In this document: piece after piece, positions 1 through 29,555 of the stretch
How positions within the stretch are numbered: position 1 is the first letter of the stretch
Layout: each line of letters opens with the position of its first letter
DNA from: a virus
Length of the DNA: 29,555 bases
Direction: 5' to 3' (one strand)
IMG/VR virus record: IMGVR_UViG_3300042465_003793
Location: 1 to 29,555 of that record
Translations under genes and position numbers: made by a program
The notes under the pieces: model-generated
What the model was told of the DNA's origin: nothing
The model's input: the letters and a program-made list of their open reading frames with translations, nothing else
The model's database searches: none

Positions 1-11
1 GTGTCGGGCCA
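1..11. repeat. Terminal direct repeat, left copy (candidate cos overhang)
   Basis: The first eleven bases, GTGTCGGGCCA, are identical to the last eleven bases of the window. A short exact terminal repeat is what a linear virion DNA with 5' cohesive ends gives once both overhangs are filled in. It could also be a small assembly overlap of a circular map. The position beside the small terminase gene favours a cos site. Confidence 0.7.
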
Positions 12-641: not shown

Positions 642-1079
642 TTAGAGCCTCTTGCATCTGTTTTCCCATAGCCCTGTCACGAGGTTTACCTTGAGGATGC
701 CATCCCTGACCATGGTGCGGAACATATGCTCGGGCGACTTAGATCGAAGGGCTGTCCCTACTCCGCCGGTCATCTGTCGGATGATGCCTATAATTGTCTC
801 TTCGCCTCTCCCCAAGGTTTGCAGCCATTGCATCTTGGTCTGGCATTCCTCCTGGCGTTGCATGAACCGTTGCATAGCCTGCAGTCTGTATTGCTTGCGC
901 TCGGCGATAGACTTACGGCCTATGGCAGCCCTTGCCTCCATGGCTGGCTTGGTAGCCGGGTCTTTCCATTGGGTTGCGTAAGCCTTCAGCTCGTTGATGA
1001 TCTTGGCCCGGGCATGCTTGCGCCGTTCCTCGGACGCGGCCTGTTCGGCGGGGGTTCGTTTCTTGCGGTAGTAGGGCAT
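642..1079 (-). CDS. Hypothetical basic helical protein
   Basis: This 145-residue protein is not recognised. Its first 90 residues are strongly basic and probably helical (PYYRKKRTPAEQAASEERRK at the start, then many Arg, Lys, Gln and Ala), as in nucleic-acid-binding or coiled-coil proteins. The C-terminal part, from about residue 95, looks like a small folded domain. An in-frame alternative codon 27 bases upstream exists, but the internal ATG starting MPYYRKK is the better start because the basic domain begins there. It is the first gene after the hairpin and tandem-repeat region, so its expression probably depends on a promoter in that gap or on read-through from the helicase gene. Confidence 0.65.
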   Translation of the reverse strand: MPYYRKKRTPAEQAASEERRKHARAKIINELKAYATQWKDPATKPAMEARAAIGRKSIAERKQYRLQAMQRFMQRQEECQTKMQWLQTLGRGEETIIGIIRQMTGGVGTALRSKSPEHMFRTMVRDGILKVNLVTGLWENRCKRL

Positions 1080-1154
1080 GGTCGTCAGATGTATTTTGTC
1101 TCTCAAGGGGAGGGGGGTAGGCCGCCGTCAAGGCGAGCCGTATCCCTTCCTCCC

Positions 1155-1199
1155 TCTCTACATGCATGTCCCTGTAGCATACAGGGACTGCAGTAGAGA
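1155..1199. repeat. Long imperfect inverted repeat (hairpin)
   Basis: Arms TCTCTAC...GTAGAGA enclose TGCA pairs and a perfect 9-bp repeat GTCCCTGTA / TACAGGGAC around a three-base GCA loop. About 20 base pairs form, with two single-base bulges on one side. No T-run follows on either strand, so a simple intrinsic terminator is unlikely. A protein binding site or origin structure fits better. Confidence 0.75.
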
Positions 1200-1205
1200 C
1201 ATAGA

Positions 1206-1234
1206 TTTGTCGTCGGTTTTGTCGTCGGTTTTGT
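1206..1234. repeat. 12-base tandem repeat, iteron-like (2.4 copies)
   Basis: TTTGTCGTCGGT occurs twice back to back (1206-1217 and 1218-1229) and a third partial copy TTTGT follows. Perfect short tandem repeats in an AT-richer gap beside a helicase gene resemble initiator-binding iterons. Two copies are few, so the role is inferred. Confidence 0.6.
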
Positions 1235-1349: not shown

Positions 1350-2603
1350 CTAATAGCCCTCCCCAGAGTCGACTATGGGTGGGGTAGAGCGTACCCAGCG
1401 GATTTCTCCCTTGTTCGGGGAGTGACGGATGTAGATTTCCCCGCAAGGCTTGAAGCCATCGGTCATGCCGGCACGGCTGCGCCTCTTGGTCAGGCCGAAG
1501 CGGTAGATCGGTTCGTCGCCCTGGCATCGCTGGAGGCAGGCAATCTCGCGTGCCCAGTTAGTGACCTCGGAACTGCCGAAGAGTTGATAGGCAAGGTCGG
1601 CGATGGTCTGGCCTTCCTTGTCCTTGGATGACTTCGGCTTCCCGGTGTGGTGCATGAAGACCACGATGACACCCGTCTCGTTGAGGATGGGCTGGATGAT
1701 GTGGCGCAGGAACTTGGCGGCCTCGGCTGTCTCGGAGATGTCCGCACCGACAAACGCCATGAGAGGATCGATGAATGCAATCGTCGCCTGATGCTGGATT
1801 ACGAGCTTACGCAGGACGTCGCCGAACTCCTTGCCCGTGGCGACGCTCTCGCGGTAGATGAACATCCTCTCCTTAAGTTCGTTGCGCTCGTCTTGGTCGA
1901 GGTGAAGGCCGTCAATCTGATCCTGCATAGACTCGGCTACGTCTCCGGCGTCGTTCTCAGCCTGGATGACCAGCGTCCGCATCTTCATGCCGTTGTCCGT
2001 CTTGATGCCGAAGAAGTCCTGCCCCAGCGTCCAGTTGATGGCGGCCTGCATCATCAGGGCAGACTTACCCGTGCCGGCCTGACCAGCCATGACCAGGGAA
2101 CCTCCCCGGCATAGCCAGCGATTGCCTAGCACGTTGGTCGGGTCAGCCTTGCGGTCAAAGGCCATCAGCTCGTCGATGGGCATGCGCTGGGCGCTACCCC
2201 TTTTGGCCACGGCCTTGCGCTTGTCTGCTAGTCGGGCATAATGCTCGAGCAGGGTGTCCGGGTCGGTGACATTAGATTGAATGACTGACGCCTCGCGCAT
2301 GAAGGCGGCGTCGGCGACCATGTCGATGTGCTCTTGCCTTAACTCGCCAAATCCAGCGTACGCGGTCAGGTCATTGATGAACGGGTAATCAACCGAAGAG
2401 CCGACAGAGTTGAGGTAGGCTGGGACGGTTGCCTCATCTGCTGCTTTGCCATCGGCCTGCAGGTACAGGATCGCGGCGGCGACCTCCTGGTGCTTAGGCT
2501 CGAAGAAGTCGGACGGCTTGAGGTTTACCGGGAAGGGCAGGTTTTCACGCAGAAGCACACCGAGGAGGTGGCGTTCCGCCGGCACGTTGTTCGGAGGGGT
2601 CAT
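1350..2603 (-). CDS. Replicative DNA helicase, DnaB/RepA-like ATPase
   Basis: At 417 residues this has the two-domain plan of DnaB-type helicases. The N-terminal domain (about 7-70) carries the family pattern AERHLLGVLL, DFFEPKHQEV and a late tVpaYL segment. A RecA-fold motor follows, with Walker A GQAGTGKS at 174-181, Walker B IAFIDP at 275-280 and an HHT motif at 318-320 followed by a basic loop, as in RepA-type hexameric helicases. It should unwind DNA at the phage fork and may help choose the origin. Upstream sequence in the same frame has shadow-like composition, so the ATG at 2603 is preferred. The C-terminal portion is shorter than in full DnaB, closer to the AAA_25/RepA family. No separate loader or primase is recognisable in the window. 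Confidence 0.9.
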   Translation of the reverse strand: MTPPNNVPAERHLLGVLLRENLPFPVNLKPSDFFEPKHQEVAAAILYLQADGKAADEATVPAYLNSVGSSVDYPFINDLTAYAGFGELRQEHIDMVADAAFMREASVIQSNVTDPDTLLEHYARLADKRKAVAKRGSAQRMPIDELMAFDRKADPTNVLGNRWLCRGGSLVMAGQAGTGKSALMMQAAINWTLGQDFFGIKTDNGMKMRTLVIQAENDAGDVAESMQDQIDGLHLDQDERNELKERMFIYRESVATGKEFGDVLRKLVIQHQATIAFIDPLMAFVGADISETAEAAKFLRHIIQPILNETGVIVVFMHHTGKPKSSKDKEGQTIADLAYQLFGSSEVTNWAREIACLQRCQGDEPIYRFGLTKRRSRAGMTDGFKPCGEIYIRHSPNKGEIRWVRSTPPIVDSGEGY

Positions 2604-2643: not shown

Positions 2644-3084
2644 TCAAGATGCTTTGCGAAGGATGCGGTCGAGGTCGGCCTTGCGGTAGTAAGGGACGCT
2701 CCGAGGATTGCGGAGGATGCGGACAGGGAGGGCCATGCCGTCGATGCGGTATTGCACGCCGCGGACGGTGCGCCGGTGCTTGTGGGCATACTCGGAGAGG
2801 GTGACCCATCCCTTAGGGGCCTTGAACTTGTCCAGGGCTTCAGCTGCGGCCTTGGCGGCGGGCCAAGTCTTGAACCTGGGCGACAGGCGATAGATGAAGC
2901 GGCCTCGGCGGATGGTCTTCTGCTCGGCGTAGCCCGCCTTGACGATGCGGGCGAGCGGCAGGGAGACTCCGGCCCGGGTCGTATAGCCTAGGAGGCGGAC
3001 GACCTCCGTGGTCTTGTGCCAGCCTTCAGGGGTGTCGTCGGCGTTGATCGCGGCGACGAGGGCGTGGGCGTCGAAGCGCTTCAT
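2644..3084 (-). CDS. Putative DNA-binding regulator with two HTH-like domains
   Basis: This 146-residue protein seems to have two DNA-binding modules. Residues about 18-70 (WHKTTEVVRLLGYTTRAGVS ... GRFIYRLS) resemble a winged helix that ends in a two-strand wing. Residues about 95-146 (GWVTLSEYAHKHRRTVRGVQ ... VPYYRKADLDRIL) resemble a MerR/excisionase-type helix-turn-helix in which a tyrosine-rich strand leads into the last helix. The ATG overlaps the stop of the methylase-like gene as ATGA, so translation is probably coupled. A GTG five codons upstream is less likely. It sits between the methylase-like and helicase genes and could act as a transcription factor or replication accessory. The family is not known to me. 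Confidence 0.75.
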   Translation of the reverse strand: MKRFDAHALVAAINADDTPEGWHKTTEVVRLLGYTTRAGVSLPLARIVKAGYAEQKTIRRGRFIYRLSPRFKTWPAAKAAAEALDKFKAPKGWVTLSEYAHKHRRTVRGVQYRIDGMALPVRILRNPRSVPYYRKADLDRILRKAS

Positions 3085-3698
3085 AGCACAGCCCCCCACT
3101 GCTCTGCCATTGCTTCGGCAACGCCTACAAATGTTTTGCTGCTCTGCTTTGCGTTCTTGCTTACTCCGATTGAATAAGAATGCCCACGCTTCTTACCTCC
3201 AGTATTAGATGGAAGGTATGGCTTATGCTCTTTGACGATTTTAGTCGGGATAAGCTTTGGCAGGTTCTTAAGCCACAGGAGCGTGCGCTTGCTGTATGCG
3301 TGACCAAACTGCCAAGGCTGTATTGCCTGGGTGTGTTCTGGCAGATTGTAAACCTTCATGGGCGTAGGGTTCTCAACGGCGATAAACTTTGCTTTAGCGT
3401 TCAGCATAGCATTGAAGAAATCCTTGGCAGCTAGTCCCAGTGAAAGCCTTTGTTGGTTTAACTCTCCGCCAGCATAAAGCCATCGAGCACCGGCCTTGCT
3501 AAGGTATGTGCAAGGAGGGTGGGCGATTACCAAATCCCATCCTGCGTTGATGTGTTTAAGTACGTCGTCCTTAATATGCCATTCTGGATGGCCTCCAGAG
3601 CAGTCCTGCACGTCGCAACTGTAAGCTTCAAATCCTCTAGCCCTGAAAGCCTTGCATACCGTTTGGCTTTCTTCGCAAGCAATGAGTATGCGCTTCAT
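3081..3698 (-). CDS. Cytosine-C5 DNA methyltransferase-like protein, compact
   Basis: This 205-residue protein starts with a Rossmann-like strand ILIACEESQ and has the PPC motif of cytosine-5 methyltransferases in AHPPCTYLSKAG (Cys63 would be the nucleophile), followed by the ENP motif in VENPTP at 109-111. Most bacterial C5 methylases exceed 300 residues and have a target-recognition domain between the catalytic motifs. Here there is little room for one. Similar short proteins occur in phages, often annotated as DNA methylases, without settled activity. It may methylate DNA loosely or protect it from restriction. Its GC content is clearly lower (about 42% in a sampled 60 bases near the C-terminus) than neighbouring genes, a sign of recent acquisition. 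ATGA overlaps link it to both neighbours. Confidence 0.8.
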   Translation of the reverse strand: MKRILIACEESQTVCKAFRARGFEAYSCDVQDCSGGHPEWHIKDDVLKHINAGWDLVIAHPPCTYLSKAGARWLYAGGELNQQRLSLGLAAKDFFNAMLNAKAKFIAVENPTPMKVYNLPEHTQAIQPWQFGHAYSKRTLLWLKNLPKLIPTKIVKEHKPYLPSNTGGKKRGHSYSIGVSKNAKQSSKTFVGVAEAMAEQWGAVL

Positions 3699-4459
3699 CG
3701 GGCCTTCGGGGTGAAGACCTTGAGGTCGGTGGTCCAGACCCAGCGGGAGCCGACGCGGTGGACGAGCCAGACCTTCCAGTCCTTGCCGTCGACCCAGCCG
3801 GCGGCGAAGCCTGAGCCCCAGCGGGAGGTGGCTAGGCGGTGCGACGCGTAGGCCATGGCGTCCTTCTGGCAGAGACAGCCGGCGGAGAAAGCGGCGCCGC
3901 CCTCGGCCTTGGTCAGGTTGACCTGGGCGAGTGTGTGCGTGTGGCCGTGGATCAGCGCGCCGCCTCGGTCGGCGTAGTGCTTGCCCTGCTCTGCGGTGGC
4001 GTTGAGGCCGTGGGCGTAGCCGTGGATGAAGGCGACCTGCCCGAGGCGGTAGACGCCCTTCTCGGCGTGATAGGGCAGGATGGTCTTGGCTCCGCAGCTC
4101 TTCGCGGTGGTCTTGATGCGGGCCTCGAGGTCGGCGCAGTAGTCGCGCACCAGGGCGGAGCCCGAGGTATGCTGGAGGGCTTGTGCCCGGTGCTCGTGGT
4201 TGCCCATCAGGTAGACGGTGGGCTTGGTGCGCTCGAGGAAGTGTTCACCGGCCTCGATGTCGGAGATGAGGGACTCAGCGCCTTCAGCGTCTTGCCCGGC
4301 TCCACGGCGGAGCGATCGGAAGTCGAAGCAGTCGCCTAGGTGGACGCGCACGGTCGGCTTGTAGTCCTTGATGAACTCGACGAGGGCCTCGACGGCGTTC
4401 TCGTCGGCCATGTCGCCGTGGTTATCGCCGAAGGCTACGAAGCGGGTCGGGGTGCTCAT
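3695..4459 (-). CDS. Calcineurin-like metallophosphoesterase
   Basis: All metal-binding blocks of the family are present in order: GDNHGD (11-16), GDCFDF (42-47), GNHEH (86-90), a histidine in FIHGYAHG (near 146) and GHTHT (172-176). The 254-residue protein is therefore expected to be an active two-metal phosphoesterase. Phage members include protein phosphatases, nucleotidases and nucleases, and the substrate cannot be read from the sequence. It is coupled by ATGA overlaps to a small hypothetical gene upstream and the methylase-like gene downstream, and a dNMP kinase lies two genes upstream, so a role in nucleotide or DNA-end metabolism is plausible. Confidence 0.92.
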   Translation of the reverse strand: MSTPTRFVAFGDNHGDMADENAVEALVEFIKDYKPTVRVHLGDCFDFRSLRRGAGQDAEGAESLISDIEAGEHFLERTKPTVYLMGNHEHRAQALQHTSGSALVRDYCADLEARIKTTAKSCGAKTILPYHAEKGVYRLGQVAFIHGYAHGLNATAEQGKHYADRGGALIHGHTHTLAQVNLTKAEGGAAFSAGCLCQKDAMAYASHRLATSRWGSGFAAGWVDGKDWKVWLVHRVGSRWVWTTDLKVFTPKAR

Positions 4460-4770
4460 TTGTTGGCGAGGTAAGGGATGGGCTTGCCGGCATCGAAGGC
4501 CGCAAGCATCTCGTCACGGCGCTTGCGGGCGATGGTCAGGTCGCCGCCGATGTTCTCGACGATGTCCTTGCCGCGTCGACGCAGGCGGAACCACCAGCAG
4601 GAGCCAAGACGCTGGAGGTGATGGTTCGGGTTGTCCTTCACGTTGCGCTCGGACTTGCGGTTGCCGTGGCAGACCGTGAACTTCGGGCAGGAGGCGAGGA
4701 AGGCCATGCGGTCGGGGGCGATGCCGATGCGGAGTCCCCACTGGATAGTCTCGCGGGTCAGAGTCTCCAT
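4456..4770 (-). CDS. Hypothetical protein; segment resembles an integrase arm-binding fold
   Basis: This 104-residue protein is of unknown function. The segment LGSCWWFRLRRRGKDIVENI followed by a helix with ARKRRDEMLAAFDAGK resembles the three-strand-plus-helix arm-binding domain found at the start of tyrosine integrases (WWyRFR..Gk...s.gt.....A). No catalytic domain follows, and the gene ends shortly afterwards. Two cysteines near residues 28-34 and His/Asn-rich residues in between could bind metal. The start overlaps the dNMP kinase by 13 bases and the stop overlaps the phosphoesterase start as ATGA. It could be a stand-alone DNA-binding protein or an unrelated small protein. Confidence 0.65.
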   Translation of the reverse strand: METLTRETIQWGLRIGIAPDRMAFLASCPKFTVCHGNRKSERNVKDNPNHHLQRLGSCWWFRLRRRGKDIVENIGGDLTIARKRRDEMLAAFDAGKPIPYLANK

Positions 4771-27030: not shown

Positions 27031-28818
27031 TCATTCGGAAGGCAAGTCGGTTTCGGAGGTTTCCCGCCCGGCGATGCCCCAGCGGACCGCGGCCAGAAGG
27101 GCGAGGATTTCGCAGTCCATGGCGTGGTTGTCCTTCTTGCCCTGGGGAAGTATCCACATGGGCTTGCCGGTCCGCTTGTCCTTGATGCGGACTTCAGCGC
27201 TGAGCTGCTCGACGTACTCGGGGGTGGCGTCTAGGGCGTAGCTCCAGACGCGGCGAGCCCGGAGGCCGTGCAGGAGGTCTTTGCCGGCGGTGGCCGAGTG
27301 GACGATCAGGATGGCCCGCTGCGGGATGCCAGGGACGACGATAGACTGCTTCTCGGAATAGAAGCGGCGGGTCGTCTGGCCGTCCTTGGAGGTCACGGCG
27401 AAGTCGTCGGAGCCCGAGCCCTTGGCCGTCTTCCAGTTGCGCTTGGCCGTCTCGCGGTAGACCTCCTGCGTATTGTCGCCGGAGTCGACGAGCACCAGAG
27501 CCTGATGCACCCCATGCTGCTTGGCGTAGGCTTCGACGTTGCCCCAAGAGTCGATGCGGGCGAAGGCCATGAGGCGGCTATGCCCGGTCTTCGACCAACG
27601 GCGGACGACCACCCAGAAGTGGCCGCGCTGAACGTCGACGCCCATCGTGCGGAAAGGGATGCTCCCGGTCGGTGCGCCCTCGCGGTCGGCCACCTTGGCC
27701 TTCGGGGTGATCACGGCCTCCGCGTCCCAGTCGTCGGACATCTTGTAGTTGGCTGCCTCGGCGAGTGAGACCATCTCACCGCCCTCTTCGCTCCAGGGAA
27801 GGGCTAGCCGCTTCTGCTTGAAGATGCGTCGCGGTTCCTCGTCGCCGTATTCGTCCGCCGATGCCTTGGCCTTCAGCATCAGGACGCCGAGCTCGCCCCA
27901 GCTCATCGAGGCCAGCGAGTTCCAATGCAGACCGATGTGCCCGGAGTTGGACGAGGTGGCCGTGGCTACAAACGCACCACGCGCGTTGGCCTCGAGACGG
28001 GAAGCGTTCGTGTCGGGCAGGTGCGTCCGACATCCCGCGCACTCGTAGGTCGTGCCGACGCTGACCTTGTGCAAGTCCCATGTGCCCGTCGCCTTTGCGT
28101 CCTCGGGGAACCTGATCTGTTCCCACAGCCAGGGCTGAAGGTGGTCGCACTTCGGGCAACGCATATTCCAGTCACGCTGGTCGGTGCCTTCGTGCAGCTG
28201 ATGGAACTCCTGACCAGCCGAACCCCCTTGGGACATGAACACCCGCTTGCCCATCCAGCCGAACGCCGTCACGCGCGCGCTTGCTTCGGCCAAGTGTCCG
28301 GGCGGCGCCATCCAGCACTCGTCGGCGATGACGTAGCGCAAGGACAGGCGCTGAAGGTTCGCCTCGTTCCAGATGCCGCGACAGTAAAGCGTCATGCGGT
28401 CGAAGTCCGCAGTCGTCGAGCGGTCAAGGTCTTCGAGGGAAAGCCGTGCCTTGACGGGCGGGCAGTTGTTCCAGACCGGGCGGAGGTAACGCAGGGCGAA
28501 GTCCTTGGCCTCTGGGTCGGTGGCCTGCAAGAGCATCGTCGGCCCAGGAGCGTTGGCGATGATGTGGCAGGTGAGCAGGCGGGCGAACAGCGACTTGCCC
28601 GACTGGATGCTGGCAAGGATGGTCAGCAGTTTCGTCTCGGGGTCTGCGGCCAAGCGCAAACTCTCGGCGATCCACGGCGTGCGGTCGGAACGGAACGGCC
28701 CGGGCATAGGCGAGTCAGGGATGGCGTGCACGTTGTCCTCGAGCCACTCTACTACGTCACCCGAGTCGGACGGACGCAGGACTTCCCGACCGATGCGTAG
28801 GAGGTCGGACTTATTCAT
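27031..28818 (-). CDS. Terminase large subunit (lambda GpA-type)
   Basis: The 595-residue protein has the GpA architecture: an ATPase with SIQSGKS (70-76) as Walker A variant and YVIADECW (162-169) as Walker B, a zinc-binding pair CPKC (221-224) and CAGC (260-263), and a C-terminal nuclease with GVDVQRGHF (393-401), VDSGDNT (444-450) and DNHAMDCEI (near 573-581) as acidic sites. It should cut concatemers at cos and drive DNA into the prohead. The ATG overlaps the stop of a small basic gene as ATGA. The motif set agrees with cos-cutting terminases, in line with the terminal repeat. Confidence 0.93.
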   Translation of the reverse strand: MNKSDLLRIGREVLRPSDSGDVVEWLEDNVHAIPDSPMPGPFRSDRTPWIAESLRLAADPETKLLTILASIQSGKSLFARLLTCHIIANAPGPTMLLQATDPEAKDFALRYLRPVWNNCPPVKARLSLEDLDRSTTADFDRMTLYCRGIWNEANLQRLSLRYVIADECWMAPPGHLAEASARVTAFGWMGKRVFMSQGGSAGQEFHQLHEGTDQRDWNMRCPKCDHLQPWLWEQIRFPEDAKATGTWDLHKVSVGTTYECAGCRTHLPDTNASRLEANARGAFVATATSSNSGHIGLHWNSLASMSWGELGVLMLKAKASADEYGDEEPRRIFKQKRLALPWSEEGGEMVSLAEAANYKMSDDWDAEAVITPKAKVADREGAPTGSIPFRTMGVDVQRGHFWVVVRRWSKTGHSRLMAFARIDSWGNVEAYAKQHGVHQALVLVDSGDNTQEVYRETAKRNWKTAKGSGSDDFAVTSKDGQTTRRFYSEKQSIVVPGIPQRAILIVHSATAGKDLLHGLRARRVWSYALDATPEYVEQLSAEVRIKDKRTGKPMWILPQGKKDNHAMDCEILALLAAVRWGIAGRETSETDLPSE

Positions 28819-28946
28819 GTGTCGAGCCCGTGCTCCTTCAGCAGTTTCCAGAGTCGGTCAGAGAAGGTCGACCACTTGGGCCGCTTGTCCTTGAACGGAC
28901 GCGAAGGCTTCGGCATCGGCTTTCGCTTGGGCTTACGCTTCTTCAT
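28815..28946 (-). CDS. Tiny basic protein (43 aa) between the terminase genes
   Basis: This short frame encodes a very basic start, KKRKPKRKPMPKPSRPFKDK, followed by RPKWSTFSDRLWKLLKEHGL, an amphipathic helix. It overlaps the small terminase gene by 14 bases and the large terminase start as ATGA, and no other frame covers the gap, so it is well supported by layout. It could bind DNA or link the terminase subunits. No homologue is known to me. Confidence 0.7.
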   Translation of the reverse strand: MKKRKPKRKPMPKPSRPFKDKRPKWSTFSDRLWKLLKEHGLDT

Positions 28947-29493
28947 CTTGGGACAGTTCGGCCTTTACCCGACGCACCCAAGCCTCGAGCACCTTGACCG
29001 CCTTGGCCGGGTTCTCCGGGTTGCACCCTTCCGCCGCGTCGAGGGCCAGCTTGTCGAGACGGTTGACCATCGTCGCCGCTAACTCGCGCATGGCTTCGCC
29101 GGCTTCGCGGGACGAGATGTAGTCCTTGGCCAGGATGAGTCGGCGTTCCTGCTCTTCCTCGAGTGCGACGAGGGTTTTGAGGGAGGCGTTATAACTGCTC
29201 TGGTATTTGCTTTGGTTGGGGTCGCCCCCTTCCATGGCCGCCTGCCAGACGCCGCGTGCCCTGGTCACAAGTCTGCGGTGTTCGCCGATTGTGTCGGCCA
29301 GCGTGCCGTCGTCGAGCTGAGCGGGTGCGGCCTTCGGGGCTTGGGCACGTTGCACGGTCGCCCGGGCTTCACGCCATGCCTTTGCCGCGTCGATGGAGTC
29401 GGTCGGCATTCCCTCCTTGCGCAAGACCGAGATGCGTTGACCCGTCACGCCAAGGGCCAAACCCAGTTCTGAGTTGGTCAGGGTTTTGGCCAT
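28933..29493 (-). CDS. Terminase small subunit (Nu1-like)
   Basis: The 186-residue protein begins with a helix-turn-helix LTNSELGLALGVTGQRISVL (5-24) followed by a wing-like segment with DSIDAAKAWR, the N-terminal plan of Nu1-type small terminases. Long helices with heptads (RRLVTRARGVWQAAMEGGD, LVALEEEQERRLILAKDY) form a probable oligomerisation region, and the acidic tail may contact the large subunit. It should recognise the cos region that lies just before its own start. The only near ribosome binding site is AGGGGA about ten bases before the ATG. Confidence 0.85.
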   Translation of the reverse strand: MAKTLTNSELGLALGVTGQRISVLRKEGMPTDSIDAAKAWREARATVQRAQAPKAAPAQLDDGTLADTIGEHRRLVTRARGVWQAAMEGGDPNQSKYQSSYNASLKTLVALEEEQERRLILAKDYISSREAGEAMRELAATMVNRLDKLALDAAEGCNPENPAKAVKVLEAWVRRVKAELSQDEEA

Positions 29494-29544: not shown

Positions 29545-29555
29545 GTGTCGGGCCA
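29545..29555. repeat. Terminal direct repeat, right copy (candidate cos overhang)
   Basis: The last eleven bases repeat the first eleven exactly. The length is close to the 12-base overhang of lambda. Confidence 0.7.

Follow-up and report, generated by a model that had tools for sequence, protein, structure and literature searches.

The oriV of the RSF1010/IncQ system is served by a RepA helicase, a RepC initiator, and a dedicated RepB' primase, and it combines 20-bp iterons with ssi hairpins. In lambda, 18-bp iterons lie inside gene O, and the helicase is the host DnaB, used with the P loader. In the PLE satellites of Vibrio cholerae, the RepA initiator varies in step with an intergenic iteron-bearing origin, and genomes that are otherwise alike differ by exchange of the two as one module, with an origin-directed nuclease as the presumed driver of this swapping (PMC8263062). 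Structured DNA has a role in other systems as well: pRN1 requires for its replication a stem-loop that immediately follows the replication gene (PMC4234260), and the short DNA hairpins of the N4 early promoters are read in extruded, single-stranded form (PMC4496689). Here, we describe a conserved element of repeats and hairpins beside a helicase gene in a phage record from IMG/VR, the whole of which (29,555 bases) was analyzed and is referred to below as the window. We propose, with a probability of roughly 0.6, that the region from 1108 to 1281 is the replication origin of this phage and that the small basic gene next to it, gene A, encodes the cognate initiator.

Genome organization

All recognized genes of the window are carried on the minus strand, and the genome has a GC content of 61%. 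Read from the right end, the genes encode the terminase small and large subunits, portal, S49 protease, major head protein, tail proteins, lysis proteins, an ERF-type recombinase and an exonuclease, a kinase, a methyltransferase, a two-HTH protein, and the helicase, followed by gene A and gene B; the repeats and hairpins are located between the helicase gene and gene A (Table 1). Among the window proteins searched, we recognized no primase or polymerase, and no partition ATPase, integrase, or HUH nuclease. The record is classed as linear, and both ends of the window (1–11 and 29545–29555) carry GTGTCGGGCCA, the site at which the contigs of more than 10 relatives also end (CGCGTGGCCCGACAC). We take these shared ends to be a cohesive-end (cos) site, and the window is therefore probably a complete genome in spite of its linear classification. 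A palindrome, AGGAGACTCCT, is present at 34–44, about 25–35 bp inside the cos end, and is kept in most lineages (AAGGAGTCTCCTAG); it is a candidate terminase-recognition element. Gene B is placed between gene A and cos, upstream of the terminase genes across cos. Its product has no annotation, resembles an HTH protein in its C-terminal stretch, and is a possible late-gene regulator. ARAGORN also called a tRNA-Ala on the + strand at 28326–28419, opposite a terminase gene, and this call is probably a false positive.

Table 1. Positions of the element and of the genes discussed in the text.
Feature	Coordinates	Strand	Remarks
Gene B	68 to about 604	-	
Swap cassette (element and gene A)	approx. 605-1280	none	putative extent, transferred from relatives
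Gene A	642-1079	-	
Hairpin 2	1108-1154	+	from the fold of the region; adjoins hairpin 1
Hairpin 1	1155-1199	+	20 Watson-Crick pairs; fold z -6.7
Tandem 12-nt repeats	1206-1234	-	TRF, 2.4 copies at 100%
AT-rich flank, helicase side of repeats	1232-1281	none	66% AT
Helicase	1350-2603	-	
Two-HTH protein	2644-3084	-	
Terminase small subunit	28933-29493		

Repeats and hairpins of the window

On the + strand, the repeat unit TTTGTCGTCGGT occupies 1206–1217 and 1218–1229 and is followed by five more bases of the array; read on the minus strand, the unit is ACAAAACCGACG, at 1223–1234 and 1211–1222. A degenerate third unit, ACAAATCTATGT (1199–1210), abuts hairpin 1. The unit is unique to this site, as no other occurrence with fewer than two mismatches was found in the window, and in four near-complete relatives the repeats likewise occur once per genome, a distribution that would fit a cis site. 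The flank on the helicase side is a candidate melting region, and only 10 of the 29,506 segments of 50 bp are richer in AT.

Hairpin 1 has single-base bulges in its 5' arm (A1162 and T1167) and a GCA triloop at 1177–1179. Folded as DNA, it reaches -18.3 kcal/mol compared with a shuffle mean of -6.0, and none of 200 shuffles was as good. It is also the sole ungapped stem of at least 9 bp with a loop of 3–8 nt in all 29,555 bases, but because whole-sequence shuffles yield 0–2 such stems, the proof of this hairpin is its conservation rather than its length. Hairpin 2 has an outer stem, GGGAGG/CCTCCC, an inner stem, GGC-C-GCC/GGC-GA-GCC, and a GTCAA loop at 1127–1131. We tried and rejected an intrinsic transcription terminator, as there is neither a T-run nor a terminator-like site at 1108–1199 on either strand. 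Rfam gave no match in the window at the gathering threshold and none at E ≤ 1 in eight relatives.

Several parts of the original prediction for this locus can be judged from these results. It had described a 20-pair imperfect hairpin with a triloop and an exact 12-base tandem repeat, both of which are real, directly downstream of a DnaB/RepA-like gene. The helicase does combine a DnaB N-terminal domain (PF00772) with a RepA-type ATPase domain (PF13481, AAA_25, E 1.5e-19), and it matches DnaB chains in the PDB by profile. The surrounding gap had been called AT-richer, which is correct, with the AT-rich part at 1200–1281. Hairpin 2 had been missed, as had the recurrence of the repeats and both hairpins in nearly all relatives.

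Conservation among relatives

Scans with the helicase recovered more than 100 distinct loci, with at least 574 encoding relatives reported, and 64 representatives were left once near-duplicates had been removed. Absence of the element from relatives with the same helicase had been named as evidence against the original prediction; 61 of the 64 representatives keep the layout downstream of the helicase gene, in the order helicase, tandem 12-nt repeats, hairpin 1, hairpin 2, and gene A. The sequence of the unit differs by lineage, and we distinguished nine unit types (CAAAACCGAYG, CTCAACWTCY, GGAGAAAGCCTA, ACAAACCCTAA, TTAACAAACCCT, GACAATCTAATA, GAACGCTTATGA, GTGAAATCCTTA, and AGACAACTCGCA), all of which keep the period of 12 even though the unit itself is not kept. 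The best 14-nt self-match has a mean of 12.3 at lag 12, compared with 7.5–8.8 at the other lags from 6 to 30 and 7.6 in shuffles; no P value is attached to this conservation, as the representatives are not independent. The repeats are absent from three representatives, and two of these (L058 and L068) also have no recognized gene A. The third, L072, has gene A and a hairpin after position 4704 but no clear 12-nt array, and it may have a degraded or different recognition site. In L071, a second array of repeats of about 18 nt (AAATCCTATGAGTAAATA) lies directly before gene A, in addition to its GTGAAATCCTTA array and within about 350 bp of the end of the helicase match (4368). Isolated relatives were sought by tblastn in 50,697 phage records, in which neither the helicase nor gene A had a match, and a scan of GTDB genomes gave a single match, at 26%.

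Both hairpins recur in the relatives with altered sequence and preserved pairing, that is, with compensatory changes. For example, both sides of the outer stem of hairpin 2 have changed in GGGTA/TATCCC, GTGCA/TGCAC, and GGCA/TGCC, and other lineages have a second hairpin at the same place. Among 23 distinct regions of type B, this outer stem reads GACTC/GAGTC, GACAC/GTGTC, GAGTC/GACTC, or GAGAC/GTCTC, fully paired in every case, and the type B stems of hairpin 1 covary in step (ATAC/GTAT, GTAC/GTAC, and ATCC/GGAT). Hairpin 1 is weak or built differently in type E and in some type B elements. The automatic hairpin search chose alternative pairings in some type B regions (for example L118 and L139), and these were read by hand from the alignment; RNAalifold paired distant columns when applied to the whole type B region and was uninformative.

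Strand preference of the hairpins

The loops of the hairpins follow rules on the + strand, which is opposite to all genes. The C-G-closed loop of hairpin 1 is GAA, GTA, GTAA, or TTTA in most lineages, and it toggles between GTA and GAA in three near-identical pairs (L139/L286, L149/L150, and L118/L140); therefore, the middle base alone is free. The type B loops of hairpin 2 are GTAA (13), GTA (6), GTCA (3), and GCAA (1), so that + strand loops tend to GNA or GNNA, while the corresponding sense-strand loops (TTC, TAC, and TTAC) are unremarkable. Extrahelical bases occur almost exclusively in the 5' arm of the + strand and are mostly T, and few G-T pairs are present in the stems that we inspected by hand. 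Raw fold energy also favors the antisense over the sense strand in 59 of 60 cases. This difference is mostly one of composition, with a modest preference left after correction (mean z -0.65 ± 0.15 in 30 non-independent sequences), and the argument for the + strand therefore rests on the loops and bulges.

Tetraloops of the form d(cGNNAg) are stable in DNA. Triloops of the form d(GNA) with a C-G closing pair are also a known class of stable DNA hairpin, and they are related to the GNRA loops of RNA, with loop-closing interactions in common (PMC5815330). The GTA and GTCA loops fit the DNA class and not GNRA. Because of these loop rules and the recurring extrahelical T's, we suggest that the folded form is more likely the single + strand of DNA than an RNA.

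Exchange of the element together with gene A

In several pairs of relatives, nearly identical helicases are accompanied by different elements. The helicases of L148 (type D) and L150 (type B) are 100% identical, and those of L139 (B) and L153 (E) and of L129 (E) and L134 (B) are 99% identical, while the gene A proteins of these three pairs share just 19–32%. More generally, gene A is 32–100% identical within an element type and 15–39% between types, whereas the helicase, gene B, the HTH protein, and the phosphoesterase each reach 97–100% between types, leaving gene A as the sole gene that co-segregates with the repeat type. DNA breakpoints were determined in four pairs of relatives. L148 and L150 share 96.8% identity up to position 3798, beyond which stretches of 871 and 552 bases show no relationship, and 95.7% identity is regained from gene B onward; the three other pairs break in the same manner about 70 bp past the helicase match, with identities of 89–97% that resume near gene B. 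A search anchored on gene A instead of the helicase recovered 80 loci, 78 of which had enough upstream sequence; 72 of these 78 score at least 11/14 at lag 12, the rest are weaker, and the same helicase family lies upstream wherever the contig reaches far enough. Based on the swap pairs, the sharp breaks in identity on both sides, and the loci anchored on gene A, we consider the element and gene A to be one swap cassette.

These exchanges also bear on the proteins that had been proposed to bind the element. The original prediction recognized no separate initiator and suggested the helicase or the two-HTH protein instead. Both candidates were rejected as specific partners, the helicase on account of L148 and L150 and the two-HTH protein because that of the window is 95–99% identical to its counterparts in L139, L153, L159, and L162, in which the repeat type and gene A are entirely different. 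The protein that had been overlooked is that of gene A, which adjoins the element. Apart from this, in 173 pairs at least one flanking gene is at least 90% identical while the helicase is below 70%, and such comparisons show these phages to be mosaics. Alleles of the HTH protein and the metallophosphoesterase (2644–4459 in the window; relatives L002–L165) are shuffled independently, with neighboring genes up to 99% identical, and we view the early region as strongly mosaic throughout.

The gene A protein of the window has 145 residues and a net charge of +17. Members of its family are diverged, with 112–145 residues, net charges of +8 to +22, and invariant Trp, Met, and Asn residues in the alignments, and their N termini are Arg-rich (the first 45 residues carry a net charge of +7 to +12). 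AlphaFold2 models of two members, that of the window and one of type B, aligned separately, show two long helices followed by a helix-helix-wing arrangement (pLDDT 90.6 and 88.7), and the protein is thus predicted to be helical with a C-terminal winged helix. A first fold search returned no family beyond weak winged-helix matches; matches to PDB structures are weak, the best (VIA Z 6.0) being to cullin winged helices, and the remote look-alikes belong to uncultured Caudovirales. No family was found in Pfam, PHROGs, or PADLOC, and comparisons with Pfam and the PDB linked gene A to no known initiator, either by sequence or by structure. To judge from these searches, gene A represents an orphan family.

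A putative replication origin and its alternatives

The layout, the period, the covariation, the loop preferences of the + strand, and the exclusive co-segregation of the element with gene A were all seen directly. An origin with its initiator is the best fit to a cis site that is present in one copy per genome, combines repeats of fixed period with strand-specific hairpins and a flank rich in AT, adjoins a replicative helicase gene, and is exchanged as a unit with a small protein of DNA-binding type; tandem repeats of fixed period, an adjoining AT-rich region, and a neighboring gene with matching alleles are among the marks of an iteron origin. The original prediction of an origin beside the helicase gene is therefore retained as to the type of element, though not as to the proteins proposed to bind it.

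From this, we infer a possible course of initiation. The winged helix of the gene A protein would bind the 12-bp repeats, after which the AT-rich flank would melt and the exposed + strand would fold into both hairpins. The resulting nucleoprotein structure could load the neighboring DnaB-type helicase onto the + strand. DnaB-type helicases travel 5' to 3' on the strand that they encircle, so a helicase on the + strand would make this strand the lagging-strand template and would move the fork toward higher coordinates. As no primase or polymerase was recognized among the window proteins searched, we propose that synthesis would be carried out by the host primase and polymerase. A rightward fork would agree with the steady excess of G on the + strand, although codon bias can yield the same excess. 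The cumulative GC skew, which had been suggested as a check on the origin, climbs at a steady rate through the window, has no minimum in its interior, and does not switch at the element; being monotonic, it is uninformative as an origin locator, and the skews at the three codon positions of the coding strand (+0.23, -0.22, and -0.29) may mean that it reflects codon bias as much as replication.

Several points count against an origin: the GC skew has no switch at the element, gene A has no homology to a known initiator, hairpin 1 is weak or built differently in some types, and the corrected fold-energy preference for the + strand is modest. In addition, a rightward fork would meet the leftward genes head-on, and a position upstream of a co-segregating gene is also expected of an autoregulated operator. 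In the latter case, the product of gene A, a small winged-helix protein, would regulate its own gene by binding the repeats in front of it, and the hairpins would be a leader structure or protein-binding dyads. This is the strongest rival because it explains the co-segregation, the repeats being directly upstream of gene A and segregating with it, and regulators adopt the winged helix more often than any other fold. We nevertheless consider it unlikely, as it does not account for the covariation of both hairpins or for loop rules that hold on the non-coding strand, the sense-strand loops being unremarkable; moreover, the repeats occur at one genomic place only, and no sigma-70-type promoter was found in 900–1500, although the sigma-70 model may not be that of the host.

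In lambdoid phages, antitermination pairs such as N/nut and Q/qut are exchanged jointly as well, and a basic gene A protein might act on nascent RNA or on a DNA site to control the late genes (gene B, cos, and terminase). Its small size and Arg-rich N terminus would suit this role, as would its location, with the early genes on one side and, across cos, the terminase operon on the other. The RNA concerned would be the minus strand, however, while the loop and stability preferences are those of the + strand; the GTCA and GTA loops are not GNRA, and gene A is predicted to be well folded, unlike N, all of which makes antitermination a rather improbable explanation. We attach even less weight to a + strand transcript that would act as a structured non-coding RNA, antisense to the leader of gene A, in copy control or other regulation. 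The more stable fold and the GNRA-like loops of the + strand would agree with it, as would the loop-closing interactions that d(GNA) and GNRA have in common, but Rfam gave no match at any threshold, no promoter or T-run terminator is present at the element, and the triloops, the GTCA loops, and the scarcity of G-T pairs in the hand-inspected stems suit DNA better. Centromeres also consist of tandem short repeats with a winged-helix protein, and the element is about 1.1 kb from the cos end, yet gene A as the reader of a site for partition, packaging, or recombination is very improbable given that the searched proteins include no partition ATPase, integrase, or HUH nuclease, that the terminase small subunit is a separate gene, and that the element always lies beside the helicase and not the cos genes.

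We therefore return to an origin with gene A as its initiator. If this is right, it would provide an origin and an initiator for a large group of uncultivated cos phages (at least 574 relatives) in which none has been annotated, and it would name an initiator family without known relatives. The many natural swap pairs, with the same helicase and different origins and initiators, would make specificity directly readable. It would also suggest that a tailed phage uses folded single-stranded DNA in the recognition of its origin, and that diversifying selection acts on origins, as it does in the conflict between PLE and ICP1. More tentatively, and at somewhat less than even odds, these phages may have a distinct class of origin, in which orphan winged-helix proteins, each with its own 12-bp iterons and a + strand with two hairpins, load a DnaB-type helicase; origin and initiator would form a plug-in cassette that is replaced while the helicase is kept, and such replacement may help to evade nucleases directed at the origin, satellites, or interference with replication. 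The combination of 12-bp units with an orphan initiator candidate was not found described in the open-licence literature searched.

Comparison with known systems

The locus resembles the oriV of RSF1010 in its RepA-type helicase ATPase domain, iterons, small putative initiator, and strand-specific hairpins. It differs in its 12-bp units, in the DnaB N-terminal domain added to the helicase, and in that no primase was recognized, with no match to a primase family beyond the overlap with the helicase in the subset of ORFs searched. Gene A has no Pfam family or clear PDB match, and no homology to RepC was detected, though a distant kinship is possible. As in the O/ori system of lambda, a phage-encoded initiator would recognize its cognate iterons and bring in the replicative helicase; however, conserved hairpins of this kind are not part of the lambda origin, and here the repeats lie outside gene A and the phage has its own helicase. 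The N4 promoters share with the element a hairpin loop structure that differs between the two strands (PMC4496689), but they are single small hairpins without iterons that serve a virion RNA polymerase, for which there is no room in this phage. The resemblance to pRN1 lies in structured DNA 3' of the replication gene, with the structure kept and the sequence not (PMC4234260). In pRN1, a single primase-polymerase-helicase protein acts without iterons, in contrast to the DnaB-type helicase, tandem repeats, and separate small protein found here. The PLE satellites have iterons that are semi-palindromes of about 30 bp and an initiator with the known RepA_N domain, whereas the phages described here have 12-bp units, conserved hairpins, and a gene A protein without a family. 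In both systems, an initiator, here the putative one encoded by gene A, and its iteron region are swapped together (PMC8263062).
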